From: Mytilus galloprovincialis
Taxonomy: Eukaryota > Mollusca > Bivalvia > Mytilida > Mytilidae
Length of the DNA stretch: 64,000 nt
NCBI RefSeq assembly: GCF_965363235.1
Contig: NC_134845.1
Location: 31,126,524 to 31,190,523, forward strand
Direction of reading: 5' to 3'
Shown: positions 27,157-50,355 of the stretch, in pieces
Layout of the letters: every line of letters starts with the position of its first letter
Position numbering within the stretch: position 1 is the stretch's first letter
Position numbers and translations under genes: made by a program
Notes under the pieces: model-generated
Told to the model about the DNA's origin: nothing
Database searches by the model: none
The model's input: only the letters and a program-made list of their open reading frames with translations

Positions 27157-27653
27157 TTGACTGACAATGTTCATGAGTACACTACCCTAGACTATACTAG
27201 AGTAACAAAGATTTGTTGATTTAGTGACAATGTGTCAGAGGAAACTATACTAGATTAGCAATGATTTGTTAATTGATTGACAATGTGAATGAGGAAAGTA
27301 TTTTAGAGAAACAAAGATTGGTTGATTGATTTCCAATGTGCATAAGAAAACTACACTAGAGTAACAATGATTGATTGATTGATTGACAATGTGCATGAGA
27401 AAACTAAACTAGAGTAACAATGATTGGTTGATTGATTGACAATGTGCATTAGAAAAATACACCAGAGTAACTAAGATTAATTGATTGAGTGACAATGTGC
27501 ACGTGCATGAGTACACTATACTAGAGTAACTAAGATTGGTTGATTGATTGACAATGTGTATGAGTAAACTACACTAGAGTAACTAAGATTGGTTGATTGA
27601 GTGACAATGTTGGTTGATTGATTGACAATGTTCACGAGGAAACTACACCAGAG

Positions 27654-27863
27654 TACTGTAAATTCAGAAATGATTGCGATAATTTTATTATTGCGAAAAA
27701 TGCGCCAGGGTTATAATCGCGATAATTTAAACTCGCATTTTGAAATATTTTATATGAATACAAAAGGATTTTTCTCAATATCGCAAAGATTATAATCGCA
27801 TTTGAGTCTAAAATGACGAAATCGCAATAATAAGTGCACGCAATAATTTCTGAATTTACAGTA
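27654..27863. mobile_element. 206-bp MITE with TA target duplication
   Basis: 27656-27861 begins CTGTAAATTCAGAAATGATT and ends with the near-complement AATAATTTCTGAATTTACAG. TA lies on both sides, and excision restores GAGTAACTAAG of the minisatellite unit. TA choice suggests the Tc1/mariner superfamily. Internal TGCGATAATTT-type words recur. Confidence 0.9.
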
Positions 27864-28012
27864 ACTAAGATTGGTTGATTGTTTGACAATGTGCATGAGG
27901 AAACTACACCAGAGTTACTAATATTGGTCGATTGATTGACAATGTGCATGAGGAAATTAAACCAGAGTAAGTAAGATTGGTTGATTGATTGGCAATAAGC
28001 ACGAGGAAAAAG

Positions 28013-28356
28013 TAAAATCACAAAAATACTGAACTTAGAGGAAAATCTAATCGAAAGGTCCATAATCACATGGCATAATCAAATAACAAAACACATCAAA
28101 AACGAATGGACAAGAACTGTCATATTCCTGACTTGGTACAGGCATTTTCAAATGTAGAAAATGGTGGATTAAACCAGGTTTTATAGCGCTAACTCAATCA
28201 CTTTGATGACAGTCTCATCAAATTCCGTGATATTTACAACGATGCGTGAACTAAACAGACATAATAAATAAAATAGTCAAAATATGGGTACAGCAGTCAT
28301 CATCGTGTAACAATTTTAAAAGGAACAATTTAACAGAACACAAAAACATCTCTACA
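28013..28356 (+). mobile_element. TTGGTACAGGCATTTTC-family element inserted in the minisatellite
   Basis: Starts AAGTAAAATCACAAAAATAC and continues through CTGACTTGGTACAGGCATTT, TAGCGCTAACTCAATCAC and ACGATGCGTGAAC. Related copies at 11015, 44445 and 57962. Minisatellite resumes at about 28360. Confidence 0.7.
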
Positions 28357-28619
28357 TAAAACTACACCAGAGTAACCAAGATTGGTTGATTTATTGACAA
28401 TATGCATGAGGAAACTACACCAGAGTAACACTGATTTGTTGACTGATTGACAATGTGCATGAGGAAACTACACCAAGGTAACTAAGATTGGCTGATTAAT
28501 TGTATATGCATTATTTAACTATTATTAAAAATGATAAAAACTATCTGATGGACTCACAAATCGAAAACAAACGAATCTTACAACAATAATAAACTCTTCG
28601 TTTGAACAGATAGCAAATT

Positions 28620-28925: not shown

Positions 28926-30005
28926 TTTGGTATTTAACTTGTTATAAGAAATACATCTATACTCAATATTTTACTTTAATGTATCGTTATGTATTTCTAT
29001 GTTTGTCATTCATTTGACTTTATTATGATATTTCTGTCTTTACTCATGATTTCAATTGTTTTTATGTGATGCCAGTTTGATTTGAAGTAAACAATTTGCA
29101 ATGTAAGTATTTTCTGCAGTTTTGTAAAATTGTGAAAGTACATCGTATGCAAAAAATAAATAATAAAGAGTTATTTCCGTTGAGATATCATGTCGGAAAT
29201 ACATCATCAGCGCCATTGTCGAATTATCATGTAGCACACTATGTGTCTTTTAGTCATTTGAGTCGTTTAATTTCTGTCTTGTTGGTATAAAACCCGGCTA
29301 TGTTAGAATGTAAGTATTTAAAGTTTATCATTTAAGAACTCAATCTCAGACAACAAATTAGTTATATTGTATACATGTATACACGGTTGTCATAAGGAAT
29401 GTTTAGAAAAATTATCGTGAAAGAATAAGTAATGTACGTAGGTCAATAATTTTGATTCGATCATAAAATATCTGGTATGAGTTCGTAAAGGAAATCTCAT
29501 CAAGAAAACACATACAAAGTCAATAGATAATATATATTATTAAATTATAAGAACTATTACAAAAAAAAAAATAATTAATCTGTCAAAATCGTCGAAGACA
29601 TGAACAGTATCTAAAAAAAGATATCGCCGTTTTTACAAAAGTACAAATGGTAGCTTTGCATTTCAATGACATAAAAAATGTAAACAAACATGATTCTTTT
29701 CATGATATGAATGACTGAATTACTATTTTGTGAACAATGTCTTTCAATATTTATGTTTTGAATAACTCTCAAAATAAATTAAGTAACTCAATCAAAAGGT
29801 GGGTTTGAATATGATATTTAAGATTACCGTGTTTTTTTAGATGGTTAATATGATCTTGAAAAATCCTGTGTCGCTTATATATCACCGCACACATCATTTA
29901 AAGTGTTAAAATAATTTTACAATTATACAAATTTAATATGTAGTTAGTACAGCAGAATAATTGACTTCGAAGCCTTTTTTCGGTGAACTTTTTTTGTCTG
30001 GGAAG
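28926..30005. other. non-coding stretch
   Basis: Short ORFs only. Palindrome GTATACATGTATAC at about 29370. Confidence 0.45.
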
Positions 30006-30009
30006 AAAC

Positions 30010-30245
30010 TGTAAATAAATATAAGAAGATGTGGCATGGGTGCCAATGAGACAACTCTCCACCCAAGTCACAATTTGTAAACCATTATAGGGCAAAGTAC
30101 GGTCTTAAACAAGGAGCCTTGGCTCACACCGAATAGCAAGTTATAAAGGGCCTCAAAAATGACTGGTTTAAAACTATTCAAACGGGAAAATCAACAGTCT
30201 AATCTATATAAAAAAAACAGAGAAACGAGAAACATATATGAGCCA
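30010..30245 (+). repeat. copy of the GATATAGGAAGATGTGG family
   Basis: TATAAGAAGATGTGGCATGG, GACAACTCTCCACCCAAGTC, CAAGGAGCCTTGGCTCACAC and CAAACGGGAAAATCAACAGT. Confidence 0.75.
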
Positions 30246-31390
30246 CTTCAACCTATAATGTTTTATGCCAATAGGTCTGTTTTTAGTCCGTCGTAACCTG
30301 GCAAGATTATACAAACGGGATTGGAATCTTAGGTTTTTCCGTATATGACAAAGCTACATGTCTTCACGAAATTTTACCAGCCTTGTAAGGATTGTGAATG
30401 AAAGAAGGCACGGATTAGTATGTACTAGGTCGTACGCTAAAGCAATTAGTACAACTTTGTTTTTCAGGCGTCAATATTTTCATGTCATTATTATCAACAA
30501 AGAATGTCTCTTCTTATACATATGATGTTTTAGAATAGTATATACTTTATATATCTATAAGAGGAAGATCCTTGATAATGATTTATATAAGTTCTGGTTA
30601 AATACTCACAAATTTTGCTTAATATCTTTTAAAACTAGATTTTCAAAAGAAAATGATCATTGATTCTGTTGATACCAAATTTGCGGTGTGTGAAAAAGTG
30701 TTGAAAAACATTGATTTCTTTGAAAATTAACAAATAAGGATTTTGTTTTATTAAGGTGTATTTTTGAAATTCCATTTTGATTCAAAGTAATTTAGTTTAG
30801 CCTCCCCTCATTTGTGTTTTGTATTATAAACGTGTATCAATTGTACCAATAAAAACCTGAAGACTCGATACAGGTTATGTATTACGATGCAACTCACAAA
30901 AATAATTGGTATTCAAGTTATACAAGATAGACTAAATGCAAGGTTTTAATGAACAAGTCTGTTTTAACAATTTTCATATTGTAAATCCATTTTGATAGAT
31001 AAATTGTAGCAAAGTAACTTAATTGTGTATTTATTATTTGTAGGTAATTTCCAAACAATATAAAAAAGACTTGAACCAAACCAATTCATGTTTCAATTCA
31101 GAAATCTGTTTCCCGATTATTTGCGATAAGGTGTAACGAGGTCAGCTTTATATGAATGCATGTTTGAGCAGTAACTACAGAAAGCCGATCGATTTCATTA
31201 AGTTACGAGAGTAAGTTTAATATTATCAGTTATTTGATAAATCAATTCATGTCTTCGCTGCATACATTTGAATGCATGTAAACCGTCACACAGGTACTGA
31301 GATAACACTATTACTAATGTTTACTTCTGATATAAATGTATCGGAAGAATTGTAAATTCGTTTCTGTTATCAGTTGGACCAATTACACAA
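30246..31390. other. non-coding stretch
   Basis: A possible donor ACGAGA/GTAAGT near 31206 could end a non-coding exon. Otherwise nothing. Confidence 0.4.
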
Positions 31391-31553
31391 TAAGTATGGA
31401 AACCAGTGTGTGTCACATTGCTTAGGGTTTTATTAATAATTCAGTGAGGGTAGACAGGATTGGAAACATCTTAAGTATGGAAACCAGTGTATGTCAAATT
31501 GCTAAGGGTTTTATCAATAGTTCAGTGCGGGTAGACAGGATTGGACAATAATT
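31391..31553. repeat. 81-bp tandem duplication
   Basis: TAAGTATGGAAACCAGTGTG at 31391 and TAAGTATGGAAACCAGTGTA at 31472; the copies match through GTAGACAGGATTGGA. Confidence 0.88.
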
Positions 31554-32089
31554 GATTATAATGAAAACATATATGTCATAGTTTCCATAAGGAGAGACAT
31601 TTTTTATTATGTTTATTATTTTGTAATAAGTGTTACATATCGCAATTGTATTATCAATTTTACAGTGAATCAATATTGAAACATATTTGGACATGTGATT
31701 CTGTTTACTTCGACATACCTATGGTACATTTTATTTAAAGGATGTTTGTTGCAATTGAAAATAAAAGTATGATGTACGGTATAATATCCTGCGATATACA
31801 TCCTCGTGTATTGCCTTTTATGGTTAAGTAATTTAGTAGAAAGATTAACCTTTCAAAATTTGAATATTATAAGTCTATATTTCGATGGCATACTTTCTTT
31901 CAGTTTCATCTATACGGTACTGTTTTTCACTCATTCATTTTGGTCAATCTTTCATATTTGGTAGCATTTGATATAAGATTTAGAAATCAGTGTTAATCGT
32001 GCGTTTTTTATCAGTCAATAGGTTTATTTTATACTGTTTTAATATTTATTAAACACTAGTATCGTGATTTTTAATATAACATATCTCGT
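31554..32089. other. non-coding stretch
   Basis: No gene or clear repeat. Confidence 0.45.
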
Positions 32090-32109
32090 TGTTATGATGT
32101 AATGCATTT

Positions 32110-32420
32110 TTGTTGTACGAAATAAATGCAACAGTAGTATACAGGTGATCAAAAGTCATAAATTGATGGAGGAAAACAAATCCTGGTTACAAACCAAAAC
32201 CGAAGAAAACAAAGGAACAACAGGAACACCGAAGTGCAACAAAGACACACGCCAACACTTTTTAAGAAAAAAAATATGGTTGTTTAAACCTTGCTTAATG
32301 GCACGCCAAACCTCTCGCTTGATGACAATGTTTCAAAATATCGCTTAAAAACTACGTGACAGAATTAAAACACAAACACTCGCAAGAACATGCATAAAAG
32401 AGAAACGCACACACACATAT
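32110..32420 (-). repeat. dispersed repeat (inverse of the 12400-12860 family)
   Basis: AACAGTAGTATACAGGTGAT, CAAAAGTCATAAATTGATGG, and an ACAAACCAAAACCGAAGAAA run. The small ORF at 32145 lies in it and is not a gene. Confidence 0.6.
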
Positions 32421-33360
32421 AAAAGTAGTCGACACAACATGCAAACCGCAGAACTAAATAGTCAACCAACGATAACAATCTCATTTAAATTCGATGTTCT
32501 GATACGCTACACGGTAATCAGAAATTATGGTTTTAATGAGATTGCCAACGATCAGAGGATACAAAAAACAAAATGTGATGTTTGTTCTTTATGGGTCAAT
32601 GCTTGGAATTTAATGAATTCGTCCATGATGTTAGAATATAGTATAGGCAGAGTTTAATTGGGTAATGTAGTTTTTTTTTATCGTCATAACATTTAAGTGC
32701 TATGTCTACGTTTTGATGTAAATATGTTTTTTGAACTTATACAATAAAGGTGTCCTGCAAGAAATGTCATCGTCTCGTTTTCATTGAGCAGGCATTGAAT
32801 GAAGATGGAATTACTAAGTAAATCCAATATTACAGCAGAGCAAATGATGTTTGGCGCATATTAAAAATATCGATTGTAGTGTGCAGTGTAGTTTTTTTTT
32901 TCTTATGTCATACAATCAACCCTACCTAAATCAATATAATAACAAAACATACATAAAAAAACACAAAAATAAATGTCGGGTCAGATTATTCGAAAAAAAA
33001 ACGTTTCTGCTTCAGCTTGAAAAATTTCAAACATCCAAAATGGTAGTAAAGCAAATGCTATTTACAAATATTATGTATAACAAAAAGGTTGTGTGAGGTA
33101 ATTTCCGTTTGCATGATAACAGTTCTCAAAGCAACTTAAATTTTCTTTGGTGGCGTATTACAGGTTTTTTAACGGATTAACGATTTCCAACTAGGACCTA
33201 TGGCTAAAACTGGTTTAAGTTTCTCCTTGGTTAAAATTCAACATTTGCATAGGGCAGAACCTTATCATTGTATGGTTTTTACATATATCCAATGATACGT
33301 TAAACGCTTGTATGTTCCCATGTATACAGAAATTGTCAACAGAAGTGTTTTCAAATAGTT
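32421..33360. other. non-coding stretch
   Basis: ORFs at 32439 and 32851 have no recognisable domain or splice context. Confidence 0.4.
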
Positions 33361-33362
33361 AT

Positions 33363-33757
33363 CAAAGGTACCAGGATTATAATTTAGTACGCCAGACGCG
33401 CGTTTCGTCTACATAAGACTCATCAGTGACGCTCATATCAAAATATTTATAAAGCCAAACAATTACAAAGTTGAAGAGCATTGAGGATACAAAATTCCAA
33501 AAAGTTGTGCCAAATACGGCTAAGGAAATCTATGCCTGGATTAAGAAAATCCTTAGTTTTTCGAAAAATTTAAACTTTTGTCTACATGAAATTTATAAAA
33601 AAAAAATGACCACATTATTGATATTCATGTCAACACCGACGTGTTGACTACTGGACTGGTGATACCCTCGGGGACGAAACGTCCACCAGCAGTGGCATCG
33701 ACCCAGTGGTGTAAATAGTTATCAAAGGTACCAGGATTATAATTTAGTACGCCATAA
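33363..33757 (-). repeat. ACGAAACGCGCGTCTGG-core repeat, long minus copy plus a partial second end
   Basis: AAGGTACCAGGATTATAATT and CGCCAGACGCGCGTTTCGTC, through AAGTTGAAGAGCATTGAGGA to GGGACGAAACGTCCACCAGC. The first ~35 bases recur at 33719-33755, so a second copy was tandem or nested. Confidence 0.75.
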
Positions 33758-33769
33758 AACTGTTCAGCA

Positions 33770-34150
33770 AGGTTATGAAGTAAAACGACTGAAATTTGGG
33801 AGTGATTTCATTCATGAGCTTCTTATAGAGAATGAAATGAAGTTAGCCATATCTTTTGACTTCACGTTCCGCTACATAGATTTTTTTTACGTCCTCTTAC
33901 TAAATATTTCAATGTTTGGTGACTATGTTTAATACATTTATCCCCTCAAATTTGGATAAAGATACTTCAGATACAGTTAAATAATTCGTATATCTTGACT
34001 GGCCTGTAGAAATTGACATCGATGGTCGATTGTGGACAACATTTTTACAACGAATCAGAACATTTCAGTGTTTCAAGTGTGAACTTTCAATTTTATCTAA
34101 CAAATTCCTGCAGCACAAGCTACTTCTGCCTCTGTTGTACTACCAGTTGT
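33770..34150 (+). pseudogene. decayed reverse-transcriptase fragment of a retroelement
   Basis: In shifting frames I read FDFTFRYIDFF (a degraded F-x-YIDD catalytic block), YIYP, LDWPVEIDIDGRLWT and IPAAQATSASVV, in the order found in reverse-transcriptase ORFs common in bivalve genomes. Multiple stops and frameshifts show it is dead. Class uncertain (possibly Penelope-like). Confidence 0.55.
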
Positions 34151-35650
34151 ATGTTATAAATATCAACATTGAATAAATGTTAAATGTTGGTGAACTTGTG
34201 TTGTCTTTAATTAAGCTTATAAGATATATGTTACAGCTACTACTATAATGATTCGTTATCTTCTTCATAATTTTAATTAACTATATCAGCCACTGCAGTT
34301 TCATATGCAGTTGCACAAATAACTTTTTCATAGAGCTTAATGTAGAGAGCTTGAACTTAAATTAAAATTTCTTATATCAAACTTCTGTTGATTCACCTAG
34401 CCCAATCCTAACCCAATTTGACCTCAACTGGGTGTAAAAATAATAATGGCCGTTTGATTTTAGCTTTAAAATGACATTGTTGGAAATCAGTGTTCCATTA
34501 TCTAACGAGATATTTGAGAGATATTCTAGAGAATGCGTCCAAATTTTCTTCTACCGACCAATTAAGTACTATGTTTTAATAGTATAAATGATCATATGAC
34601 ACTGTCGTGCAGCCATACCTGTATCTTGATATCAGTGGTTTGATAATATTGAATTTATGTGTATAAACACTTTGTGAATTCTTACTTACAGGTATAGTTT
34701 TTATTACTTTTTTTCAAATTGCGTTACAGAAGGGGTTTCTAAAATGCAAGAAAAAGAATATGCATTTAAAGTTGGCTTCAACAAATAGCACACATATTGT
34801 TCATCTTACTTTTCTTAAAAGAAAAGCACACACAAGGGACTGTGTTATATTTAAACTATACATATTAAAAAGGTAACTCTTTTTCCTTACCTGTTATGAT
34901 GGTTAACATTTGATCATTCATGCTATTACAAAACTTATATATTTTCGTAAAATAAAAAAGACATTTCAAGCCTTGACACTTTTATTTTTCATATATATTT
35001 GTGTATATAAAAATATCTATGCTCTCAAATTGCAAAGACAAATATCATACAGACGACCATTTTATAAATCTAAGGTTGGAAGTTTTCCTGTTTTTTTTTT
35101 CTTGCCAAGATTTACAGGTCAAATAGGGCTTTGCAGTACTCCCTTCTCCCCTCCCCCCAAAAAAGGACAACCCATAAAATAAACGTGTGTATACAAGTTC
35201 AAGTTTTATTCGGTGTCCATGCTTTCATCATCAGGACTAACATGGCCTTCGGACTAATAATAGGATTCATGTATATTTGATAAAACAGTTTAAGCCTGCC
35301 AATTAATGACTTCTGATATTGAAAACACCATAGTTTAAGGCAAATGCGAATGCATTTATTAAATAAAAAAATAATCCATGACTTGTCATTTTAGGGACAC
35401 AAACAAATCACCCCAATTTCATGCAAAAAATGATGATAACGAAGTTTTTGTATAGTTTCCTTTAAAAAAAAGGTGTGGCAACCTGACCACTTGGTGTTCT
35501 CGTATTAATCTGTCCAATTTTCACTTTAAATGATTTCTTTTCAAATATCGTCTGGTCTTACATTTCTCAGCAAGTCGGAAAAAAGTTAAATTCATTGTGA
35601 TTGAAGGTATCTCACTTTTAAATCTTTCAGTTAAGCTGACAATTAGGACG
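34151..35650. other. non-coding stretch
   Basis: The ORF at 34910-35182 spans T-rich and C/A-rich low complexity and has no family features. No gene called. Confidence 0.4.
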
Positions 35651-35657
35651 CACTTAA

Positions 35658-36099
35658 GGTATAGAACCACTAATTCAAGCCCGGTCGGGAAGAACATACA
35701 AGAAAGTAGTACATATTTTAAACAAAATAGTTCCTACGCATAGCTGTATCTTTGTCAATAGTGGGAATATTTTGGCAGTTTTTATATCAAATGAAAGCTT
35801 GGGCACTTGGGATCACTGCAAAACCCTTTTACTTGAATAATAAAGGAGTATTTGAAATTTTAATAGGATTCAGATCAAAAGTTCCTGTTTTTGTACTATG
35901 AATCTTCGGGGAACCAGTGCGCTCTAATATGCAATTAAAGGTATGTTGATTCTTTCAGCACAAGTCAGGATAAGGTACAGTTTTGACATGAATAACTGCC
36001 ACTTTATTTGAACTTAAGACAAAGTAGCCATAAATGCTTGAAATTGCAATTTAATTTAACATAGAAAGCAATGGGGCTATGAATTAGTGGTTTTATACC
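35658..36099. mobile_element. ~442-bp MITE with ~25-bp terminal inverted repeats
   Basis: Left end GGTATAGAACCACTAATTCA; right end, inverted, GGTATAAAACCACTAATTCA. Interior non-coding. TTAA precedes it but TATT follows, so target duplication is unresolved. Confidence 0.75.
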
Positions 36100-36480
36100 T
36101 ATTACGCTAATCGGACTAGTCGGAAAATTCCAATAAAGCAAGAAGAGGCAAAAGAGGTAATTTATTATCTGATAAAATTTGATATTAAATGAAAACACAA
36201 CAACACACACAAGACGTTTGAAACTGATCTCAACAATGTAATATCTGTCAATTCCCATTAGTAAATATTTGTTCTTAAGTTATCCACAGAATTAGTTCCC
36301 CTTATATTATTCTAATATATTATTCTAATATAAGGCAAAAAACAGCGGATGACATCATGACCAGTACCAAATTTATCGCAGTAGATGAATTTGAGAAAAA
36401 CTGAAAATGACTTATCAATTCATAGATATTTCAAGTAGTCAGATCTTGTAGTCAGAAAATACCTGTACATTAGTTTTTCT

Positions 36481-36492
36481 CCCCCCCCCCCC
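36481..36492. repeat. poly-C tract
   Basis: About 12 consecutive C, unusual in this AT-rich window. Confidence 0.85.
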
Positions 36493-36714
36493 TTTACTTA
36501 TATTCCCCAATAATATTTTACCTGTGTACAATATTCTATTTGGCGGCAAGGTTATTTGTTTAAGGTAATGGTTTTTCCTTTTGTAATTATTTAACATTTC
36601 ACAGCTGTATACTACTGTTGCCTTTATTATTTGCCCCTTATTTTATTGATTTTTTAATAACACTATGTCATAGATCAATTTCATTCGGTCAGTGTATGTT
36701 TACTTGTGTTTATA

Positions 36715-36875
36715 TGTCTTTTAATTTTAGGGGCCCTTTATAGCTTACTGTTCAGTGTGAGCCTAGGCTCCGTGTTGAAGACCGTACTTGGTTTTTCTTT
36801 TAAAAATTGTGACTTTGATAAAAAGTGGTCTCATTGCCACTCATACCACATCTTCTTATATCTATTCATTGAAGT
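36715..36875 (-). repeat. GATATAGGAAGATGTGG-family copy
   Basis: GGGGCCCTTTATAGCTTACT, AGCCTAGGCTCCGTGTTGAA and ACCACATCTTCTTATATCTA, just upstream of the first coding exon of the METTL24-like gene. Confidence 0.75.
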
Positions 36876-36969
36876 TTATTTCAGAATATTCACATAAACA
36901 CACGCTCTTTTGTATGGTATTGTTTTTAAGTCTATTTAATTATTATATTTCGTTTTATATTTTTAGAAC

Positions 36970-36988
36970 GTTAAAATTTTAACAGGAG
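36970..36988 (+). other. splice acceptor before the first coding exon of the METTL24-like gene
   Basis: TTTTAACAG ends at 36985 and GAG precedes the ATG, so a 5' non-coding exon must lie upstream. One candidate donor (ACGAGA then GTAAGT, near 31206) exists, but nothing ties it to this gene. Confidence 0.5.
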
Positions 36989-39900
36989 ATGAAGATTTTG
37001 AACAAACATGCTTGTTTGAAAATATCCATTCTTTTTATCATCACTGTTGTATTACTGATATCAATTTGTCAGAAAATGTCTGCACCATACGATGACGTTG
37101 TACTTAAAAACCAAATAAAGCATCTGATACAGGTACGCATTACTTTTAGTTTATAAACTGACATGATACACAAGTAATAGCAATCATATCCACTACAGTT
37201 GAGTCAGACATGATATTTTCAAAAGTTTTATGAATATCCGTTTTCTTTGGTGTACCTTGCAGCTCGGCTTGTTGTTTTGTTATGCCATAAGAGAAAATGC
37301 GTTTACTTACTTTGACGTCACATCAAATATTCAAAACATTTATATAAGTCTGGAATCTGATGTATAGTAGTTGTCGTTTGTTTATGTAATTTATACGTGT
37401 TTATCGTTTCTCGTTTTTTTATATAGATTAGGCCGTTGGTTTTTCCGTTTGAATGGTTTTACACTAGTAATTTTGGGGCCCTTTATAGCTTGTTGTTCGG
37501 TGTAAGCCAAGGCTCCGTGTTAAAGTCCGTACATTGGTTTATAATGGTTTACTTTGTTATTGTTATTTGGATGGAGAGTTGTCTCATTGGCACTCACACC
37601 GCATCTTCCTTTATCTACTTAATTCGATGATCTAGTGTTGTAGGACGTTGTACACTGTACAAGCCCAGTTGCAACGGTGTTGCATAAGCATCACACATCA
37701 TTTTCAAGGGTATCACCAGCCCAGTAGTCAAAACTTCGGTGTTGACATGAATATCAATAATGTGGTCATTTTTAAAAATTTCCTGTTTATAAAACTTTGA
37801 AATCTTCGAAAAACTAGGGATTTTCTTATCCCAGTCATAGATTACCTTAGCCGTATTTGGCACAACTTTTTGAAATTTTAGATCCTCAATGCTCTTCAAC
37901 TTTGTACTTGTTTGGCTTTATAAATATTTTGATATGAGCGTCACTGACGAGTCTGATGTAGACGAAACGCGCGTCTGGCGTACTAAATTATAATCCTGGT
38001 ACCTTTGATAACTATTTACACCACTGGGTCGATGCTACTGCTAGTGGACGTTTCGTCCCCGAGGGTATCACCAGCCCAGTAGTCAAAACTTCGGTGTTGA
38101 CATGAATATCAATAATGTGGTCATTTTTATAAATTTCCTGTTTACAAAACTTGGAAATTTTCGAAAAACTAAGGATTTTCTTATCCCAGGCATAGATTAC
38201 CTTAGCCGTATTTGGCACAACTTTTTGGAATTTAAGATCCTCAATGCTCTTCAACTTTGTACTTGTTTGGCTTTATAAATATTTTGATATGAGCGTCACT
38301 GATGAGTCTGGTGTAGACGAAACGCGCGTCTGTGGTCTAAATTATAATCCTGGTACCTTTGATAACTATTTCAAGATATTACATTCTGGATATCTTTGAT
38401 AAATTGTACAATTCAGCATGATAATTGCAACGACTATTCTTCGGAAATAACGAATAAAAATGTACTTTTCTAGCGCATTATTTTGATTTTCACATTTATT
38501 AGAACTTCACCGTCAGTTCCGTCTTTTTTATATACAATGAATTCTTTTCCACGATCGCGAGCATTGCAGAGCCATTAAAATTAAAACAACACGTTATCAA
38601 TTGTAAGCGTCGAGTTTTTTCTCCATCATCGGATTCACAAACTTTATAATTTAAGTGTTCTTATCATTTGTGTATAAAGAATAAAATAAGAATTATGTGA
38701 GCATCTTGTAATCTTTCAGAGAGAAAAACCACATTCGGTCAAGGGAGATTTCAAAACAAAAGAAGATATACACTGCATTAGAACAGTAAGTTGCATATGA
38801 CAAATTATATTTACTGTTGTGTGGTAACTCAGTGTCATAACAAAATGAGATAACTACATATATCGCTTAAGTACACTTAAAGAAATAAATATTCCCTTTA
38901 CACTAAGTAACAAAAAGTCGCTCCTATTTGCCTATGGAAATGTTATATTTTCCAAAACAATGAAATACGCTATTCAAATGATTTTGTTTTTAATCATTTT
39001 TTAAATAGCACCTTGTTAATTAGCAAGACTTAAACACTGATGCGGAATCTCACTTTATTTAAGTAGGTCTTTCGTGTGATATCGACTATAGTCTTCAGAA
39101 ATGAAGAACTTTAAAGATAGTAAAATATATTAGTTGAAGGTTTTAACATTATTTTTACCATTCTTTTGTTTTCAGGATGTAGTCTTTTGAATTTACAAAA
39201 TTGACAGCTTGGTTAATTTGTCACAAAAATGCAACAAAATTTTATAAAACTTCCTAATATTAACACCAATTTATAGTTTTTAATAAGTTAAATTTATTCA
39301 GATTGGTACACTTCATCTTTAGTGAAGGCATGAAAAAAATTCAATAATTGTGAAATTATAATTTTTTTCATGAGAATAACCAAAAATGGGTAAAAATTAA
39401 TGTAAATGTGAAAATCATAAAAAAAGATACCTTTAAATGGTGGTAGCAAAAAAGGAAGTGCACCACCATATGTGAATTTTTCTTCATCAGTACCTTTCTG
39501 ACAGTCACTTAAAAGAAAAAAAAGTTAATTTTAAAAATGATTGGCTTCTCAGAGCTGTACATCCTTAGGAACATAAAATTAAGAATTGCAAGCATCAATT
39601 GTGATTGAAAACAAGTAATCTTTTTTTAAATCTTTTCAATCTGTGCACAATCTGATCTGTATTATGTGTTATCATTTTCTCCTTCGTGGATTGCAGGTCG
39701 AGCAATTTAGAAATAGAGATGGGAATTTTATTGTTCCACCAGATAAAATTTTGAAAGTATTGCCGCCTAATGTGGTTGAGTGTCTATATCACAGGTAACA
39801 TTAAACCTTTGATGTATTAAGCTATAATTAATGATATTCACTAAAATATGATTTTATGCAAAAAAATAACAAACCTTACATACTGACCTATACATAAGAC

Positions 39901-42900
39901 ACAATAGATTAGATAAAGTTCTTACAATTTTACACCTGACTTGCACTGTCATGAGTCAATGTTCAGTGAACCGTGACGTGAGGAAACATCAATTGAATCG
40001 AGTGGATAAACATATGATTGTCAATGAAAAAAAATTCGTTATATAAAATATGGTATGATTTCTAATGAGAGATTTAAATTGCAGAAAATTGTAACTCACA
40101 TGATAGAAAGACGTACGGAAACTTATATTTGCAACGTCTACGTCATTTTGAATTTGGTGTATTCTTCTCACATTCGCAATCATGCCACATCTAAAAATAA
40201 ATTGGGGTTGAAAGTATAGGTGGAAGAAATATAATATAAAAAATGACAATTTTGGATAAAAAAATCACGAGTCGATAATGAAAGGACAACGATTTTTTTT
40301 AGAAGCCAAATATCTACAAGAAAAAACAATGTATTATCGAACAAATTTCAAACATTGAACAGGAAATGTTTTAAAGCCATCAACTTGTCTTTACCAAATA
40401 AGGCATTATCAATGATTAAGATATTTCTATACAATTGAAGAAATCGAATCCATGTTGATATCAAACACAAATTTATGTTAGCTTGTATATACAAAAACTA
40501 TAAATACACAAAAATGATAAGAAATTGGAGTATGGAAATACGGAATATGCCAAAGAGACAACAACCAGATCAAACTCCGGACAACAGTCGAATATGTGAT
40601 AACGTACTTTGCTGAGTTAAGCCATTTCAATTGATACTGTATATTTGGTCCTATTATGTTGTTATATTTCATTTTTGTTGCCGATTAGGGGGAAGGTTTG
40701 CATTAATTTTGTCTCAACGTTTAAACCAGCTGCATTTTATGATGAGTTTATTTATGCACTTGTCCTAATTCAGAAGCCTATTTGTCAGTAGTTGTTGTGT
40801 GTAATTGTCGTCCATAAGTGTTTCCCGTTTTTTTAATATAAATTAGGTCGTTGGTTTTTCTGTTTGAATTGTTTTACACTATACATTGTGGGGCATTTTA
40901 AAGCTTGCTATTCGGTTCGAACAGAGGCTCTGTGTTGAAGACCGTACTTTGACATATGATTATTTACTTTTGATACATCTTGACTTGAATAGAGAGTTGT
41001 CTCATTGGAACTAATACCATATCTTATCATTTATATTTGTTGCTATACATTTTATAGACTAACCACATCAATTCAAGCATTTTGTGCAAAACGGGGTCGA
41101 CATGGAACTATGAATAATGGATGGAATATTTGTGAAGATGGATGTTACAAACCAAATCAAAATACAAATATTTGGGTTATTAGGTATGACTAAATAAGTT
41201 TATTTAAAAAAAAATTTTAATGAATTTTGAACTAACGGTTTTTGATAAATATTAAGTTGTACCAACCGCAGAAGTGTCCTTTTGATTACCTGACGCTTGA
41301 TGTCTATTTTCTATATTAACACTTGTGACTTTTGTTTTGGTTTTGCATTTTCAGATGTTTTTGCATAGCGCAATACTAAGATATGTATGGTCAAAATATG
41401 AATCTGGGGCAGTAAAATGTTTATGATTTACTCAAGTACTACCAATCAGTCGAACATTCATCTAGTGTATAGTTCAAACTGTTGGTACCACTAGCCAAGT
41501 TGCAAGATCATTCATATTGATATGATCATTCGAATAGTATTTGTGTTTTAAAATTGGTATTTGAAATTTTTAAGATTTAGGAAATCTCCCTCATGCAAAG
41601 CTCTCATTATTTCTCACTCTTCTGATCAGAATGAATGGTATGGTTACTGGGTACGTTAATGCACTAAAGGATAGTACAAACATCGAAAGTATTCTTTCTG
41701 GTTGTAAACATACAGTCATGATCTACTCAATCAAATATAATTGTGTAGGACTATTTTGAATAAAAATACTTTTTAAAAGGTCAACATATGGAAACATTGC
41801 TTTACTTACAGCAAACATTTTACTTTTTTATTCTATTTTTTTTTGTGTTCATTGCATAGTATCTATACAGTAATGATTAGTATTATTATCGTTTTTATCG
41901 TCAGAGAGCAATATGATGATGCTAAAAATCGAAAAACTATTTTATTATGACAATTTGTTGCACTATATGATATTTTTGGTTCTTTTTTAACTGAAGAAAA
42001 GAACATAAAACGATATGTATATATTCAACAGCACTGTGAATGATAAGATGAATGCTCAGAGTATAGATTTACATTATAAAGCAAAAGTTCATAGACACAA
42101 ACCAAGGTATTTATAAATACTGAAATGTATTCTTAAAATACACTGGAATCAATAGTTTAGTTAAATTGACAAAAGTATCCGAATTTCAACAAAACGTCGT
42201 ATTGATTTAATCGATAAAAAAATAAAAATCAACAAAGCACTCAATACAATGATAATATAAAGTGTTATGGAACCAAGAAAGAATAAAGATACATAAGTAA
42301 CCACAAACTTACCACAGAAACGTTCAGTTTTGGTTTTATTGGTTTTTTCTAGAAACCAGCCACCAATTTAAACACAAATTTTCGGATGTTCAATTGATTT
42401 TAACTTTATTTCAAAGTGAACTTTGTACATGAATAAGAACTTTTTTTTGTTGCTTTTTGAATGTTGACCATGTTTACTAATTTCTAGTATGAAATATGGA
42501 CAATATGATACAGCTATCACACCAAAAGATAAGAGTGGACTCTTTGATCACTCAACACAATTCGGTGTTTGGAGCAATGAAGTAAAAAGAAGATCGGTAT
42601 GAATACATTTTAGTATTATATTTTGTACAATATGAAGTATTGTGTTTTTATGATAATTTATCATATACTTAGCATTGATATGATAGCTTTTGCATAAGTA
42701 TAATGAGCGGAAGTACACAAGCCATAATTTCCCAACTGGGCTGATAACCAATATCAGGTGCATCTCGTGCACAAAACCCATAATAGTGCCTCTCGTGCAA
42801 GTTACTTCCGGTGTTTCCGGTATCGGTTGTTTACTTTTCCATTGTGACGTCAGATATTTTTCAAGACGACGTCAAGATTTATGGGAACTTTTGTGGGGAT

Positions 42901-44040
42901 AGTTTAGTACTTGCTAACAAATGCCATTGACAATTATGAATCATTTTATAGTACAACAAACATGGAGTAATAATGATCATAAAACTCTTCCAAATTTTCA
43001 ATGTTTCAAAATGCCTCTATAGGATATGTTATCATAAAAATGTATATGGCGGTAGTGATGCTGTTGTTGGACAATTATAGTATATTTGATTCATAAGTTC
43101 TGTTTTAGTTATTGCATTTGTTTATTTTCCTTACATAAAACTATTGTCGGAAGTATATGATAAAGCGATTAATACATGGCCTTTTCCATATCAGCCTGGG
43201 TATCATCCCTCGACCCATATCAGCACCTCGACTCCGTCTCGGGCTGATATGGGGGTCTCGGGATGATATCCAGGCTGATATGAAAAAGGCCATGTATTAA
43301 TCTCTATATAATGATTTTACAAAACTCTCACGGATGAAATTCAATACCGAAAAATTATACCAATATGCATGAAACTGTTGAGAATTTTAAATCAATTTGA
43401 ATTCATGTTTAAAAATGTGTTTTTAGATGAATGTATATGTACTTTGAAGGTTTGTATTTCATCAAAATATATATCCATACCGCATTGTTATAATACTTTA
43501 CTCAATTATTTTCGACGATACATGCAAATGTGGATTAACCAATGTGAATATCGACGCTTAAACGAAAAGTGACAGAAAGTAAATATTTTAATTATGGTCG
43601 GCTCCATATTGTAATTTGCGTCGTTTTTGTACCGTTAGTATTTAACTGCGTTTGGTGTTGTTATGGGGTCTTTAGTTCAAAGAAACCAACATTAAATGTT
43701 GAATCACGAACATAAAAACAAAACGTGTCTCGTCGTTTGTATATGCTCATTTTTACTTTTAAAGAATAGCAGAGATGTGATCATTCTGGATGTCGAAAAT
43801 CTTACAGAGAAAATATTGAGTGATGTGATAAAAAATGGACTTCTCAACAAAATCCAACAACTGTCAATTCGTATAAATTACGCAGATGATCAAACCGGCA
43901 TCAAATACCTATCAGCACTTAAACACTTGAGATCCCTTTTTCAAGCAGGATTTAGGATATACTGGACAGAACCAAAATGGTCATGCATTCTTCAGAACAA
44001 AAAGAGGACAAGATGTGTATATTTAGATATGGTACGTTAA
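36989..44040 (+). CDS. METTL24-like (Methyltransf_22) protein lacking the SAM-motif exon, six coding exons
   Basis: Seen: coding exons 36989-37132, 38720-38785, 39697-39794, 41058-41183, 42488-42596 and 43765-44040, each with AG/GT borders and mutually compatible phases (0,0,2,2,0), giving 272 residues and a TAA stop. Residues about 10-27 are a membrane anchor, so the rest is probably lumenal. NNGWNIC (122-128) is the G-W-x-x-C motif seen in METTL24-like proteins. The last exon aligns position by position with that of the gene at 45506-50329 (IILDVE against ILKMDIE; both end in GxRIYW). Odd: the exon carrying DFSFDD...GC...FDP in the neighbour is absent here; I found no in-frame equivalent in 41184-42487. 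The fifth exon is 11 codons shorter than its counterpart and lacks its WKxxTLxDIL stretch. The family is inferred from remembered motifs; catalytic activity is doubtful. The final acceptor is AAAG rather than CAG, chosen by phase and alignment. Confidence 0.75.
37405..37620 (-). repeat. GATATAGGAAGATGTGG-family copy in intron 1
   Basis: TTAGGCCGTTGGTTTTTCCG, CAAGGCTCCGTGTTAAAGTC and GTTGTCTCATTGGCACTCAC. Confidence 0.78.
37690..38375 (+). repeat. two tandem ACGAAACGCGCGTCTGG-core repeats in intron 1 (period 355)
   Basis: GGGTATCACCAGCCCAGTAG begins at 37708 and 38063; cores at about 37962 and 38319. The copies are nearly identical, so this is a recent duplication. The 94- and 80-codon minus-strand ORFs inside are repeat-derived. 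Confidence 0.85.
40490..40645 (+). repeat. variant GATATAGGAAGATGTGG-family fragment in intron 3
   Basis: ATTGGAGTATGGAAATACGG and GCCAAAGAGACAACAACCAG, the reverse of the 28620-28925 variant. Confidence 0.55.
40800..41033 (-). repeat. GATATAGGAAGATGTGG-family copy abutting the fourth coding exon
   Basis: Ends ATACCATATCTTATCATTTA, leaving only about 25 bases before the acceptor AG at 41056-41057. The branch point of this intron therefore probably lies in or next to repeat sequence. Confidence 0.75.
43167..43302. mobile_element. 136-bp palindromic MITE-like hairpin in intron 5
   Basis: GATTAATACATGGCC at the left pairs with GGCCATGTATTAATC at the right, and pairing continues through CATATCAGCCTGG/CCAGGCTGATATG. 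The loop holds GGGTCTCGGGATGA-like GC-rich sequence. Confidence 0.8.
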
Positions 44041-44163
44041 CAATTTAGAGTTTCATGCTGTATTCATTTTGTATTTCCATGTTTAGGTTGAATTATCGCT
44101 CACGAATGCAAGTTTCTAAAGTAAGTTCATACCGTTTTTGTAGGTTCATCTCTAAATTTTATG

Positions 44164-44169
44164 AATAAA
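44164..44169 (+). terminator. AATAAA polyadenylation signal of the first METTL24-like gene
   Basis: Canonical hexamer 124 bases after the TAA stop. It supports transcript termination here and hence a gene separate from the downstream exons. Confidence 0.55.
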
Positions 44170-44444
44170 AACATTTTGTGTTGAAATGCAGTGAAACGGC
44201 ATTACATGTATTTGAGTATGTTTTTGTTTTATATATAATTGTTTTCAAACGCTAACCATACATTTAGCAATTATCGTTGTTTGCTGTGTAGAATACATTT
44301 TGTTATTATAGTATTTATCCAACTGTTAACGTTGGTTCTATATTTTGAAATTTCTGACACTTTCTTCATGTGATGGCTTTTAACCTTACCTATTGGTTAT
44401 AGCTCATTTTGAAGACAGCACGATGACTTGTAAAAAGTTATATC

Positions 44445-44700
44445 ACAAAAATACTGAACTCAGAGGAAAATTCAAAACGATCATTTAAATGATAAAATCA
44501 AAAGCGGAAACACATCACACGAATAACAGTAATATTCGTGACTGGGTACAGGCATTTTCAAATGTAGAAAAGGATGGATTGAACCTTGTTTTATATCGCT
44601 AAACCTCCCACTTGTACGACAGTCGCATCAACTTCCATTACAATGACAACGATGCGTGAACAAAACAAACAGACACAATACGTAAAAATGTCTTGTTGCT
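44445..44700 (+). repeat. TTGGTACAGGCATTTTC-family copy
   Basis: AATACTGAACTCAGAGGAAA, GGGTACAGGCATTTTCAAAT and ACAACGATGCGTGAACAAAA, collinear with 28030-28265. Confidence 0.75.
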
Positions 44701-44777
44701 CATGTTATAAGGAAGCCAGTGAAATGTCTAATTCGGAAGATAACATTGTTTACAACTTTTTGATGAATTATTTATAG

Positions 44778-45267
44778 ATTTACCATACATGTAAAGACTT
44801 AGAGGACACAGAAGGCATATCAATTGGCATAGACGAGATTACCACATTGGTAGGTAAGATATTGATAAAAAGATACACTAGGTAGTACATGGTATTAAAT
44901 ATACACTAGAATTAATATATTTATATTGAAATACTTGTTATCTCCAAAACCTGTCAGATAGTTTTAATTATATTTCCATTTAGTCTCTGTATGTGTTTGT
45001 CGGCAATTAGTTGAGATGTCATGGTAGTGCCTTATTCTTGCAAAATCACAGATTTTTTTTCCATTACTTCAAGTAGTGCGCTGACAATTATCTGCTCAAG
45101 AAAAAATGCAATTATTAATTGAAAACCAATATAAATTGTTGCAGAATAAACTTGACGATAACAGTATTTTAACAAAACTTGCAATTAAAGTATAGGTTTG
45201 AATTTGTGATCAGATTTTGGTATTTCACTTATAGTTTGTATCTTCAAAAAGCTAGACAAATATACAG
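44778..45267 (+). other. candidate upstream exons of the second METTL24-like gene
   Basis: Two stretches have exon-like borders. At 44778-44852 TATAG precedes and GTAAG follows, and only one frame is open (IYHTCKDLEDTEG...). At 45235-45267 ATAG precedes and GTATAA follows; the frame LYLQKARQIY joins 45506 in phase. The first does not join the second in phase as drawn, so at least one border or exon is wrong. Confidence 0.25.
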
Positions 45268-45505
45268 GTATAAGAAGGGACCAATCTATCGTAAGTGTCA
45301 CGCTTTTTCTAACTATGATTTTTCTTTGATAGACTAAACAAGATTTTCTTCAGAAGTTGTATAAAATGTTCTTAAATTTTCAGCTGTGTGTTTTACATTT
45401 TGTATAACTATTTAATTCAAAATTCGATTGAAGACTGTTCAATCAATTTACAGTTATATGCTTCTATTAAACAGATAATACTCATTTTGTCATTCCTGAT
45501 GATAG

Positions 45506-48500
45506 GAGACTTACAACCTTTAGCGAAAAGGAATTAAACGGTCTATATATAAGGTATAGTTTATGTAATCAACTCAGTCATCTTACTTATATATTGTTTA
45601 TTTAGTACAAATTATTTGAAACGAATTTCTAATGAATTATACAATTTTTTAATACAAATGAAAACATTTATTAACTTTCAAATGTTGTAAATTTAGAAAG
45701 TTTGAATCGTCTGTAGTCGAAACGTAGCTCTTATGCTTTGGGTTATCTATGATAACATAAAGATGTACTTAAGAGAAATTAAGCAGTGAATAATTCAAGA
45801 ATTCAAAATTGATACCATACGTAACAAGAGCATTAGCTAAGAAAAATAATAAAATAAAAGTATTGATAGGTTATGGATCTCCTTTCGATGATATTTAAAA
45901 GAATTAAACGGTGAGAACCCCGCCACATTATTTATGTATGTGCCTGTCCCAAGTCAGGAGCCTGTAATTCAGTGGTTGTCTTTTGTTTATGTGTTACATA
46001 TTTGTTTTTCGTTCATTTTTTTACATAAATAAGGCCGTTAGTTTTCACGTTTGAATTGTTTTACATTGTCTTATCGGGGCCTTTTATAGATGACTATGCG
46101 GTATGGGCTTTGCTCATTGTTGAAGGCCGTACGGTGACCTATAGTTGTTAATGTCTGTGTCATTTTGGTCTTTTGTGGATAGTTGTCTCATTGGCAATCA
46201 TACCACATCTTCTTTTTTATATTGACTCCGACTTTAATCTTAAATTTGGTAATTTTAGTCTCAAATTTTAAGAAATGAAATCTAGAATCTGCTTAAATTT
46301 TGAAATGACCTTTTATGAACTATTGAAGTCTTATATGAAAAGAAAAATTGTGATATTGGGCAAAAATGTTTTACCCTGTATCATAGGAAAAAAACCACGG
46401 AGTCCAATATCTGACAAAAATTCCTAAACTTGACATAATTAAATTCTTTAAGTGATATTGAGTTAAAAATTGAATGATTCAGTCAAAATTTGTAATAATG
46501 AAAGCAAACTTTCGAGGACAAAGTCCCAGTTATAGTTGAATATGTACAATAACAATAGGTACCAATCAAGCTAGAATATATAGCAATGGGGATATGTGAT
46601 ATCAATCTACCAGCGTTCAAATAACTTGGATGTATATAATCATAGACATATAGGAAAATAGATAATCTATAGTCAGATAACAAATTACCTTATCAAGAAC
46701 AAGAGTGGTTAAAGGAGGCGACAGTAGACTATCGCTGTTCAAAAGTCATAAATCTACTGAGAGAAACTAAATCATGTTTTTTTTAAGAAACCAAAGGTAT
46801 ATTCAAACTCAAACAAGAAACGTGTGGTCTTAGTTACATGTACATATGAATGGTTAGCAGAAAAATGTTATGCAATGAAATATAAAATATATCAAAAAAT
46901 ATCTATGTCGACACATCAGGGTCAGGCCATTTAAAGATTTGTGAAAGTCGCTCACTTTTCGTGTGAAAGCTTATAATTTTAGCTTCAAAGTTGATACATG
47001 TGATTTGGACATCAATGTTTTTTTTATGTTGTAATAGAATAGGAAACTTTACCCATCCGCTATTTATAAGTCCTATGCATATAACATTTCTTCTACATCA
47101 CCATTGTAGATATCTGACATCAATACAAACACTTTGCAAGGAAGTATTAAGATTAGGTTTAATAAGTGACGGGGGATGGAACGTATGTCATGACAAACAA
47201 TATAGACCATCTGACCCGTGCTTAGTGTATTCATTTGGGTAAGTATATACACATTGTTAAAAAAACTAGTTAACATATTAAAAGCACAAACGATGAAAAT
47301 GGTCAATGACGTCGACAGGAGGATTAAATAGAATTATTCATTCTTAAACTATTGAATTTGGTCTATATTGAACATTTATTCATAACCATAAATACAATTG
47401 ATATACATGTTGGGACATCTTTACACTAATAAACTGCTTTACAAGCATTACATGTATGATAAATTTAAAGAATCTACTCGAAAAACAACTGCTTCGTTCT
47501 CATGTCTATATATTGGAAAAAAATGTTAAACAATTCTATATATTCCAATAAATGTGTTATGTTTCTAGATTCTTGGTTGAAAATTGAAATACATAATAAA
47601 TCCGAATGAGTATTAAGTGTTCAAGTTAACCAGCACACCATGCAATAGAAAAGTCTTGGAGTTTTAGCAATCAGAATAAAATTACACTTCAAAGTACCAA
47701 TGATACATAATAAATATTCCAAGCATTTGAAAGTTCTCAAGCTCATAACAAAAAAACATTTAGTAAAAGATGATACAACTAATTTTTAAAATATTTTCAA
47801 ATGAAAAAAACACTTTATAAAAGATGTTATAACCTTTGAGTTTTCCGTTGATATTCCAATAATACAAGCACTGTCTATATTGTCTTTGTTTCTTATAGGA
47901 TATTCTGGGATTTTAGTTTTGACGATGCGGTGGCAGAAACGTATGGTTGTGAAATTCACTCGTTTGATCCTAGGTAAATAGGAAGTTAACATTAAAGAGT
48001 CTTCATTTCTAATGAGTTTTGCCCTTAAAATCTTAATTAATTTCTAGATATTCAGGAAACTTTTGATTCACATTTTTATAGTGTAAATAAATAAATAATG
48101 ATGATTATCTAAAACTGTTCATTTATGAAAAATGAATTTTAATGACTGAGTGACTTATTCAGACAAGTATGCAATAAATTGCGATTTAAATTGATGGATT
48201 TGATCAGATTCAAACATGTGGTCAAGGGTGTACTATACGTGATTTAGGTTCATTTAAACTGACAGGTAAGGCCTTTCGTTTTTTCTCTGTATTGTTTTAT
48301 ATTTTGGCACGGTTGGGCTTTCTGTAGCTGACAATACGGTAATGCGTTTCGCTTATTGCGTGTACGCCGTTTGGACAGTAACTGCTGAAATCCGCCACAT
48401 TTTGAGTTTAGTTGTATCATTGTCAACCATCTCACATGTACTGTTTTAATTATATTACGATCAGAATAGAAGCATGACATGTGTACAATAATACTTCCTA

Positions 48501-50329
48501 ACAAAGTGGCGCAATGAAATTAATTTGAAAAATAAATAAATGTGGTGCATTGTTTGATTGATTGGACAAAGTTATCTTTTCACTGGCAACTGGCAACTGT
48601 AAATAATGTTTAAAATGCAATCATATACATGTGTATGTATCTATTTGTAGTATGAACACTTCGGATTTCAAGCGTGGAAATTCCATATGGTTTCACAAGC
48701 TTGGTCTGTCTGATCAAACAGGAATAGATGGAAAACACAAATGGAAGATATTGACACTACAAGATATCCTTTCAAATCTGAATCATACATCGGTAAGATC
48801 TATTAATGTTTTCAATATAAAATATATATTAGTCAAAAAAACCAATTTACAAGTAATTATATATGGAGAATGGCCCTAGCCTCCAAATTATTGTAGTAGT
48901 TCAGTTGAATTTTAGAAAAAAAACTTGATTTAGAAGTTGCAGATCTCTTCCATTGGTCCAAATTGACTCCATGATGAACCCTTAACTAAGGAATAGAAAT
49001 TACATTCTACAACATTTGCTTTCAAAATTGTCAACCTTTCTACATGTTCTAGCTGTTCTTTTGGTCATTCTTTGTATGAAGACTACCAAAAGATAACCCC
49101 TCCCTCCAAAAACAAAATTGGCCGTCGTTTCCTCAGAGCTCTTCAGGTCTTCTTGATTTTGTTACTTGTATGCGGCATTTACTTGTACCTGTTTACATTT
49201 TCAAATATTATCCATAGTGTTAACATACTGTTTTGTTATCACAGCAAATGGCATAAATTACTATTACATAGATCAACTGTCAGAATTTAGTCCATACTAG
49301 GTGATAAATTCTCCTTTATCTTTTATTTCAATTTCTATTTTTTCCCTAATATAATGTGGATACGTACAAAGAGAGACAACTCTTATCTTCAAAATTTTCC
49401 ATGTACAACCCTTACATTATCTAACAAAATTATTAAGTTTCTTTCATCATTATTTTCTCATTTAATTATTAAGCACAACTTATATATTGAAACTACATTG
49501 TATCTAATAAGAATTAAGCCTCAGATATAATAAAGATTAATGGATTTGAAATTTAGTCACATAATATTTCGTACATAAATACCACACATCAAAGGAAAGC
49601 GACTGTTCAATAATCATTCTTGTCAGCCAATAGTTGGCTTTTATTTCATCAAAATGTTATTTTACTATTTTTGTTTAAACATTAATCCGAGTAACTAAAT
49701 AGAATGACAAAAAAGCAATTAAAGGATCAGTAACTACATCATCAGCTCAAAGTCAAAGCGAGTCTTTCAATATGCATATATTAATTGTTGAATTGTGTAT
49801 CATGTGTACTTTAATTGAAACCATTTATGTCCATTTAACAAAATTCAATCACTCTTAACTCGATGCATGTTGATACCGGTCCCTTTCTATCGATTCGAGC
49901 GAAATGCTTTGCCAGATGTACAGTTCACGTTATGGCTGTTATTCACAAGGTCGTGATGTTTTTGTATATTTTTTACGGTTTTTTTTTCATGAGAGTTAAA
50001 ATCACACTGAAGTATATGAGTGTTTAATACTGAACTTGCCTTTTTTGTAGAAAACATTGGATATTTTAAAAATGGATATAGAGTCTATGGAATGGCAATC
50101 TCTACTTAATATGATAAAAACTGGTGCACTTAGAAATATAAGACAACTGTATGTGGAATTTCATGGATCAACTGCATCAGTACAAAAGCTTCAAATATTA
50201 AGAAGTATATATAATGAAGGATATAGAATTTATTGGTACCACAGAAATCCCGCTGAGACCAATATAAGGAAATGGAAATTTGTGGAAAACACTAGTTGTT
50301 ATGAAATATATTTTCTAAAAATTAAATGA
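45506..50329 (+). CDS. METTL24-like (Methyltransf_22) protein with intact SAM-motif exon, 3' five exons
   Basis: Exons 47110-47238, 47899-47973, 48651-48792 and 50051-50329 have good splice sites and matching phases (2,2,0) and end in TGA. They encode GGWNVCHD..YRP..PCLVYSFG, then GIFWDFSFDD...GCEIHSFDP, then WKILTLQDIL, then ILKMDIESMEW...GYRIYW. These match my recollection of METTL24-like Rossmann methyltransferases; acidic FDP and MDIE are expected cofactor-site elements. A weaker fifth exon at 45506-45553 (ending ...GLYIR, phase 2) fits in frame and aligns with the ...ECLYHR end of the third exon of the gene at 36989-44040. These five exons give 223 residues. The N-terminus and membrane anchor are not found. 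Either short 5' exons lie in 44200-45500 or the exons share a 5' end with the upstream gene. AATAAA follows at 50350. Confidence 0.75.
45915..46230 (-). repeat. GATATAGGAAGATGTGG-family copy
   Basis: CCTGTCCCAAGTCAGGAGCC, AAGGCCGTTAGTTTTCACGT, GTTGTCTCATTGGCAATCAT and ACCACATCTTCTTTTTTATA. Confidence 0.75.
46713..46830 (-). repeat. fragment of the 12400-12860 family
   Basis: GGCGACAGTAGACTATCGCT, TCAAAAGTCATAAATCTACT. Confidence 0.55.
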
Positions 50330-50349: not shown

Positions 50350-50355
50350 AATAAA
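50350..50355 (+). terminator. AATAAA polyadenylation signal of the second METTL24-like gene
   Basis: Canonical hexamer 21 bases after the TGA stop at 50327-50329. Confidence 0.55.

Follow-up and report, generated by a model that had tools for sequence, protein, structure and literature searches.

A candidate pseudo-methyltransferase gene lacking its cofactor-binding exon beside a METTL24-like gene of Mytilus galloprovincialis

The stretch analyzed here (the window) comprises 64,000 nucleotides (nt) of the mussel Mytilus galloprovincialis (RefSeq assembly GCF_965363235.1, contig NC_134845.1, positions 31,126,524 to 31,190,523). It is AT-rich (GC 31.3%) and contains 0 undetermined bases. Two METTL24-like genes lie one behind the other on its forward (+) strand, and all positions below are counted from the first base of the window. 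The gene under study, called F (36989-44040), is a strongly diverged second copy beside N (recognized exons 44778-50329), which is apparently an intact gene for a membrane-pathway methyltransferase. The exon of N that is predicted to bind the cofactor S-adenosylmethionine (SAM) is absent from F, and the coding frame of F is intact. The reading that we favor, with a probability of about 0.55, is that F represents a retained, type-II-anchored pseudo-methyltransferase related to the adjoining N. Judged from the DNA, this is the best, if unproven, reading of the locus.

F has six exons (144, 66, 98, 126, 109 and 276 nt), which are joined to 819 nt and code for 272 residues plus stop codon, without an internal stop. 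All five introns are GT-AG, which rules out a processed pseudogene. Exon 1 (36989-37132) contains the start codon, a basic N terminus and the signal anchor CLKISILFIITVVLLISIC. It ends in phase 0, was assigned by frame, splice signals and anchor, and is possibly common to N (see below). Exon 2 (38720-38785, phase 0-0) was assigned by frame and splice signals only. Exon 3 (39697-39794) runs from phase 0 to phase 2. Exon 4 (41058-41183) codes for GWNIC, which represents the GW-x-x-C motif, and for TNIWVIS where N has CLVYSFG. It is followed by intron 4 (41184-42487), the expected place of the SAM exon. Exon 5 (42488-42596) has 109 nt compared to 142 nt in N, their equivalence being based on position, phase and joint alignment. 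The last exon (43765-44040) includes the stop codon, and an AATAAA follows at 44164-44169. Only one acceptor of this exon (TTTTTACTTTTAAAG followed by AAT) keeps the frame; the alternative at 43769/43770 (...AATAG followed by CAG) breaks it. On a simple home-made scale, the in-frame acceptor is the weakest of the internal acceptors of F (4.36 versus 4.92-5.55), and the splice-site scores of F and N are in the same range.

Two exons were added to the previous gene model of N. One of them (44778-44853, 76 nt, phase 0-1) is the first that was recognized and, on a home-made scale, scored highest among the 14 possible exons with these phases between F and N (10.92; next candidate 7.25). The other (45475-45553) codes for FVIPDDRRLTTFSEKELNGLYIR, which aligns gap-free with FIVPPDKILKVLPPNVVECLYHR, encoded at the 3' end of exon 3 of F. 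The remaining exons are at 47110-47238 (GWNVC and CLVYSFG), 47899-47973 (the SAM exon), 48651-48792 (penultimate exon, 142 nt) and 50051-50329 (last exon with MDIESMEW and the stop codon), and an AATAAA is found at 50350-50355. N carries three N-glycosylation sequons. The intron that precedes the F(I/V)xP segment (38785-39697 in F, 44853-45475 in N) differs in phase (0 in F, 1 in N), and the two positions are several residues apart. Either these introns are not homologous, or a shift has taken place, or one of the boundaries was placed wrongly.

When single exons were compared to the window by tblastn, exon 4 of F matched N at 47108 (1.8e-6) and the last exon of F matched N at 50060 (5.0e-8). 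The best match elsewhere in the window for any single-exon query was 0.27, and exons 1 and 2 of F found no counterpart in N. For the complete spliced product, BLASTP against N as the only target gave an E-value of 4e-18 (54/207 identical). The hydropathy profile of F (Kyte-Doolittle, 19 residues) has its maximum of 2.75 at residues 9-27, and later peaks do not exceed 0.82, so that F is predicted to be a type II protein of the secretory pathway with a single N-terminal signal anchor. The initial annotation, which was made from the sequence without database searches, had described six exons spliced in frame to 272 residues, a membrane anchor, a shortened penultimate exon and a homologous last exon with LDVEN in place of the MDIES of the neighbor. 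All of these features stand.

It had also stated that the cofactor-binding exon of the neighbor is missing from F and that the flanking phases (2 and 2) make this loss frame-neutral. The SAM exon of N codes for IFWDFSFDDAVAETYGCEIHSFDP, which directly follows the glycine of CLVYSFG and has the motif series DFSFDD...GC...FDP. With 75 nt and phase 2 on both sides, it can indeed be skipped without an effect on the frame. When this peptide was scored ungapped against the six-frame translation of the window, the true exon reached 139, compared to 36 for the best match by chance. Within intron 4 of F (41184-42487, three + frames), the best score was 23, which is background level. At the DNA level, the best similarity between this intron and the introns of N had an E-value of 0.055 and was treated as noise. 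In simulations, a neutrally decaying relic of the SAM exon still reached a score of 24 in 93% of the runs at 0.4 substitutions per site, in 60% at 0.6 and in 10% at 1.0. Because no relic rises above background and relics of limited age would have been detectable, the exon was removed by a clean deletion or its loss is old. In the case of decay in place, neutral survival of the open frame is very improbable: among 20,000 simulated neutral copies each, 1 was free of stop codons at 0.3 substitutions per site and 0 at 0.5, with splice sites and indels left uncounted. Since the exon after the CLVYSFG glycine is absent without a detectable relic, F is predicted to be non-catalytic, as had been proposed.

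The loss of this exon is not the whole story. N was searched against Pfam as a 207-residue query, devoid of its first two exons (44778-44853 and 45475-45553). It matches Methyltransf_22 (PF13383) with 1.9e-26 (93.7 bits, cut-off 22.4) over residues 8-205, while the FkbM methyltransferase family PF05050 is matched more weakly and below its cut-off (2.2e-4, 21.8 bits, cut-off 22.7). In the comparison with Methyltransf_22 profiles that had been suggested for F, no PF13383 match was reported for F itself, be it for the spliced product, exons 3-4, the last exon or a version of F with the SAM exon of N inserted. As a control, N deprived of its SAM exon still matches PF13383 (1.1e-17), and even its last exon alone does so (4.2e-5). 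Therefore, F has lost family residues elsewhere too, and a simple exon loss, as initially assumed, is an incomplete account: the rest of F has also moved away from the family. Such departures are TNIWVIS in place of CLVYSFG, the 33 nt by which exon 5 is shorter, and LDVENLTEK in place of MDIESMEWQ. The latter change is the source of the only N-glycosylation sequon of F (NLT), which, if lumenal, could lead to glycosylation close to where the active site used to be. F also has a weak match to Self-incomp_S1 (0.0075, 17.3 bits, cut-off 24), and its last exon has one to Crr6 (0.075); both are attributed to chance. Using the same 207 residues of N, no match was found in a virus contig collection, and 7 pattern matches but 0 confirmed ones in prokaryote genome contigs, which is unsurprising for such collections. 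Among solved structures, searched with the sequence of N, three sequences had an E-value of at most 10 (best 0.11) and were judged unrelated.

Selection was evaluated from the pairwise ratio of nonsynonymous to synonymous substitution rates (dN/dS) between F and N. Maximum likelihood on 182 codons (every alignment column without gaps, starting at residue 81 of F) gave about 0.08, with a 95% upper bound of about 0.17 obtained by interpolation. Higher values are penalized, with a cost in twice the log-likelihood difference of 2.9 for 0.15, 5.3 for 0.2 and 21.4 for 0.5. For 122 codons from hand-chosen ungapped blocks, the estimate hit the search bound, and values of 0.2 and 0.5 cost 5.3 and 14.7, respectively. 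If F had been neutral since the duplication, with N strictly kept, a ratio of about 0.5 would be expected according to simulation, a value that both codon sets reject. In 160 simulations with neutral F (dN/dS of N assumed to be 0.05; deletions in F and realignment included), the ratio was at or below 0.081 in 0 and at or below 0.17 in 1. Kappa was fixed at 1.5 in these simulations as well as in the 182-codon estimate. Because dN/dS is low and none of the 160 neutral simulations came as low, F has been constrained on average since duplication, not necessarily since the exon loss nor at present.

F shows two features of a pseudoenzyme, namely the absence of cofactor motifs and a coding frame that is intact. 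Compared to a METTL24-like enzyme, homology extends over the remaining exons, while the SAM-binding exon and a reported PF13383 match are lacking. In our view, F has probably been retained as a partner without enzyme activity and is not a dead gene. Its product, if expressed, would sit in the membrane of the endoplasmic reticulum or Golgi as a type II protein with a short basic tail, a single anchor and a lumenal domain. This domain would still have the GW-x-x-C segment and the part encoded by the last exon, and would be devoid of the segment after the glycine loop and of part of the penultimate exon. The missing segment is what we take to be the first helix and the acidic strand of the class I methyltransferase fold. 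With the cofactor segment absent, F should therefore not bind SAM in the usual way. By analogy to known pseudoenzymes, its most likely role would be to pair, as a stabilizer or allosteric partner, with active N or with another glycan-modifying enzyme. If this is correct, F would show how a methyltransferase fold may be kept after loss of its cofactor segment.

Several points weigh against this interpretation. In the single-exon tblastn searches against the window, no match was obtained between the two penultimate exons. The segment of N that is equivalent to exons 3-4 of F matches PF13383 with only 0.002, which is under the family cut-off, and, as the filters of HMMER discard most matches above an E-value of about 0.1, the lack of a match means only that none was reported. 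The predicted structure of the last exon of F, computed from a two-sequence alignment, is of low confidence (predicted local distance difference test score 54.6), and 0 of 682 matches of this model to the PDB had an E-value of at most 0.001. Its order of elements (strand-helix-helix-strand-helix-strand-strand-strand) is roughly that expected for the C-terminal half of class I methyltransferases, but is given no weight because of the low confidence. The loss of a helix and a strand may destabilize the domain. Saturation of synonymous sites (about 8.5 neutral substitutions per site in total, as fitted) makes dN/dS rough; moreover, a ratio from two sequences is an average since duplication, from which the time after exon loss is inseparable. 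The initial view of a retained copy holds for average constraint (intact frame, dN/dS about 0.08), but selection after the loss does not follow from two sequences. Finally, F may have remained an enzyme through most of this time, with the exon cleanly deleted only recently.

If this last point is taken further, F would have been an enzyme until lately, would not yet have acquired a frame defect and would now be neutral. Such recent inactivation would be compatible with the low dN/dS, which covers all of the time since duplication, and with the survival of young neutral copies: these were stop-free in 36% of the runs at 0.02 substitutions per site (5% intact with splice sites and indels at an assumed rate included). 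The values for somewhat older neutral copies (8% at 0.05 and 1% at 0.1) speak for retention of F. We regard it as improbable, because F does not reach a reported Methyltransf_22 match even with the exon of N restored, while N, which is of equal age, fits the family, so that the departure looks old; also, the shorter exon 5 and the altered end of exon 4 are unlike a fresh lesion. It is far less probable still that the SAM exon is present but was missed, being either very diverged within 41184-42487 or lost by an assembly error or in one haplotype. Upon reading by hand, a YDDA is found at about 41912, preceded by a CAG acceptor of fitting phase. It is about 720 nt into intron 4 of F, near the middle, and the SAM exon of N is 660 nt into its interval. 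However, this candidate was rejected, as it scores only 19, which is under six other matches in the intron, and its frame soon reaches TGA. Two blocks in which F and N align have scores per residue of 1.4 and 2.3, which would give roughly 36-59 for an equally kept exon of 26 residues, compared to 23 for the best match in the intron. An assembly error is not indicated either, since the window is free of undetermined bases.

A different kind of alternative concerns the first exon and is considered unlikely, although it is the strongest competitor. F and N may be one gene with two 3' cassettes, the anchor exon at 36989-37132 being common to both. Splicing to exons 2-6 of F (with the polyadenylation signal at 44164) would yield an inactive isoform, and splicing to 44778-50329 the active enzyme; the tandem duplication would have copied exons 2 onward and excluded exon 1. 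This is suggested by the apparent lack of an anchor exon for N. Scans for anchor first exons were run under loose settings (any phase, hydropathy of at least 1.7 over 17 residues, donor of at least 2.5, 22-130 residues) and strict ones (phase 0, hydropathy of at least 2.2, donor of at least 3.5, 30-110 residues). In the 14.8 kb before N (30000-44777, + strand), the exon of F was the only anchor first exon under loose settings, with three donor choices from one start codon, and under strict settings it was the only candidate on the whole + strand. Between 44041 and 44777, four phase-0 candidates of at least 25 residues were found; none is hydrophobic, and their donors score 0.5-2.5 compared to 5.5 for exon 1 of F. 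The exon at 44778-44853, which is the best of its class, begins in phase 0, the phase in which exon 1 of F ends, and each cassette has an AATAAA of its own. However, the phases would agree by chance in one of three cases. N may have a short, anchor-less or distant first exon: only exons of at least 22 residues were scanned, and 37 loose donors on the whole + strand leave room for one upstream of 30000. The data are compatible with a shared first exon and likewise with an unrecognized first exon of N. The initial view took F and N for separate paralogs; as no anchor exon was found for N, they may instead share a first exon. A first exon shared by an enzyme and a pseudoenzyme may be the new aspect of this locus. 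A somewhat less likely extension is that a single locus, via one anchor exon and two tandem 3' cassettes, codes for an active Golgi-anchored methyltransferase and for a dead counterpart, which is devoid of the cofactor exon and selected for another task. In that case, splicing and the choice of polyadenylation site would set the ratio of enzyme to regulator.

The genes lola and mod(mdg4) have shared 5' exons and alternative 3' cassettes, and encode transcription factors. They would resemble F and N only if there is one gene, the shared exon being a proposal based on the sequence.

Returning to the pseudo-methyltransferase interpretation, METTL24 and Methyltransf_22 are the closest reference for the pair: N matches the profile, and F has the GW-x-x-C segment and last exon of N but neither a reported profile match nor the SAM exon. 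METTL24 is called an uncharacterized methyltransferase in one publication (PMC11514484). No topology for METTL24 was encountered in the accessible text of PMC9613963 and PMC10775140, and the terms "transmembrane" and "signal peptide" are absent from that of the former. As far as the literature search reached, no published case of a METTL24 paralog without SAM-binding segment was found. The search also found no paper on an expansion of the methyltransferase-like gene family in Mytilus; for METTL24 and mussel, it returned only a paper on nacre color. Precedents exist in other families (PMC10211241). The TbPRMT1 prozyme of Trypanosoma brucei is a dead paralog with an altered Rossmann fold that lacks a critical helix; it does not bind the cofactor and boosts the activity of its partner. 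As in F, a methyltransferase paralog is devoid of an element of the cofactor-binding fold, but the prozyme is a protein arginine methyltransferase and no relative of METTL24, and the partnership of F is a guess. FAM20A, described in the same source, is a pseudoenzyme of the secretory pathway, which heterodimerizes with its catalytic paralog FAM20C and activates it. This parallels the situation of F and N, except that these proteins are kinases.

A single-exon reading frame for a GT10 fucosyltransferase (20526-21668, +; PF00852 2.6e-44, PF17039 8.8e-18) is located upstream of F and N, at a distance of about 15 kb. According to a review, molluscs have many O-methylated glycans, and the extrapallial protein of Mytilus edulis carries 4-O-methylated glycans with branched fucose (PMC8699351); the word methyltransferase is absent from its main text as far as available. 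For Caenorhabditis elegans, glycan methyltransferases are stated to have escaped identification, and potential methyltransferases are among the members of glycosyltransferase clusters in the genome (PMC7614267). It is tempting to speculate that N methylates glycans. This is a guess, prompted by the anchor of F, the three sequons of N, the weak FkbM match, the GT10 neighbor and the O-methylated, fucosylated glycans of molluscs. Glycan methyltransferases of invertebrates were still unidentified in the literature examined. A METTL24-like enzyme and a dead but retained partner, with a GT10 gene in the vicinity, would be a candidate pair.

Several repeats were also noted. Intron 1 of F holds two 271-nt copies (37707-37977 and 38062-38332) that are 96% identical and start 355 nt apart, which looks like a young local duplication. 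In intron 5 of F, a fold-back at 43157-43312 has 60-nt arms that are 88% complementary and 36 nt apart; it looks like a miniature inverted-repeat transposable element. A repeat beginning with GGGGCCCTTTATAGCTT occurs three times before and within F (36726-36795, 37471-37540 and 40886-40955; 74-100% identity to the reference). A second piece further downstream (family D2) is present in four copies, one of them in N at 46176-46231. Several tandem arrays at 25679-28502 have units of about 50-58 nt with similar consensus sequences.

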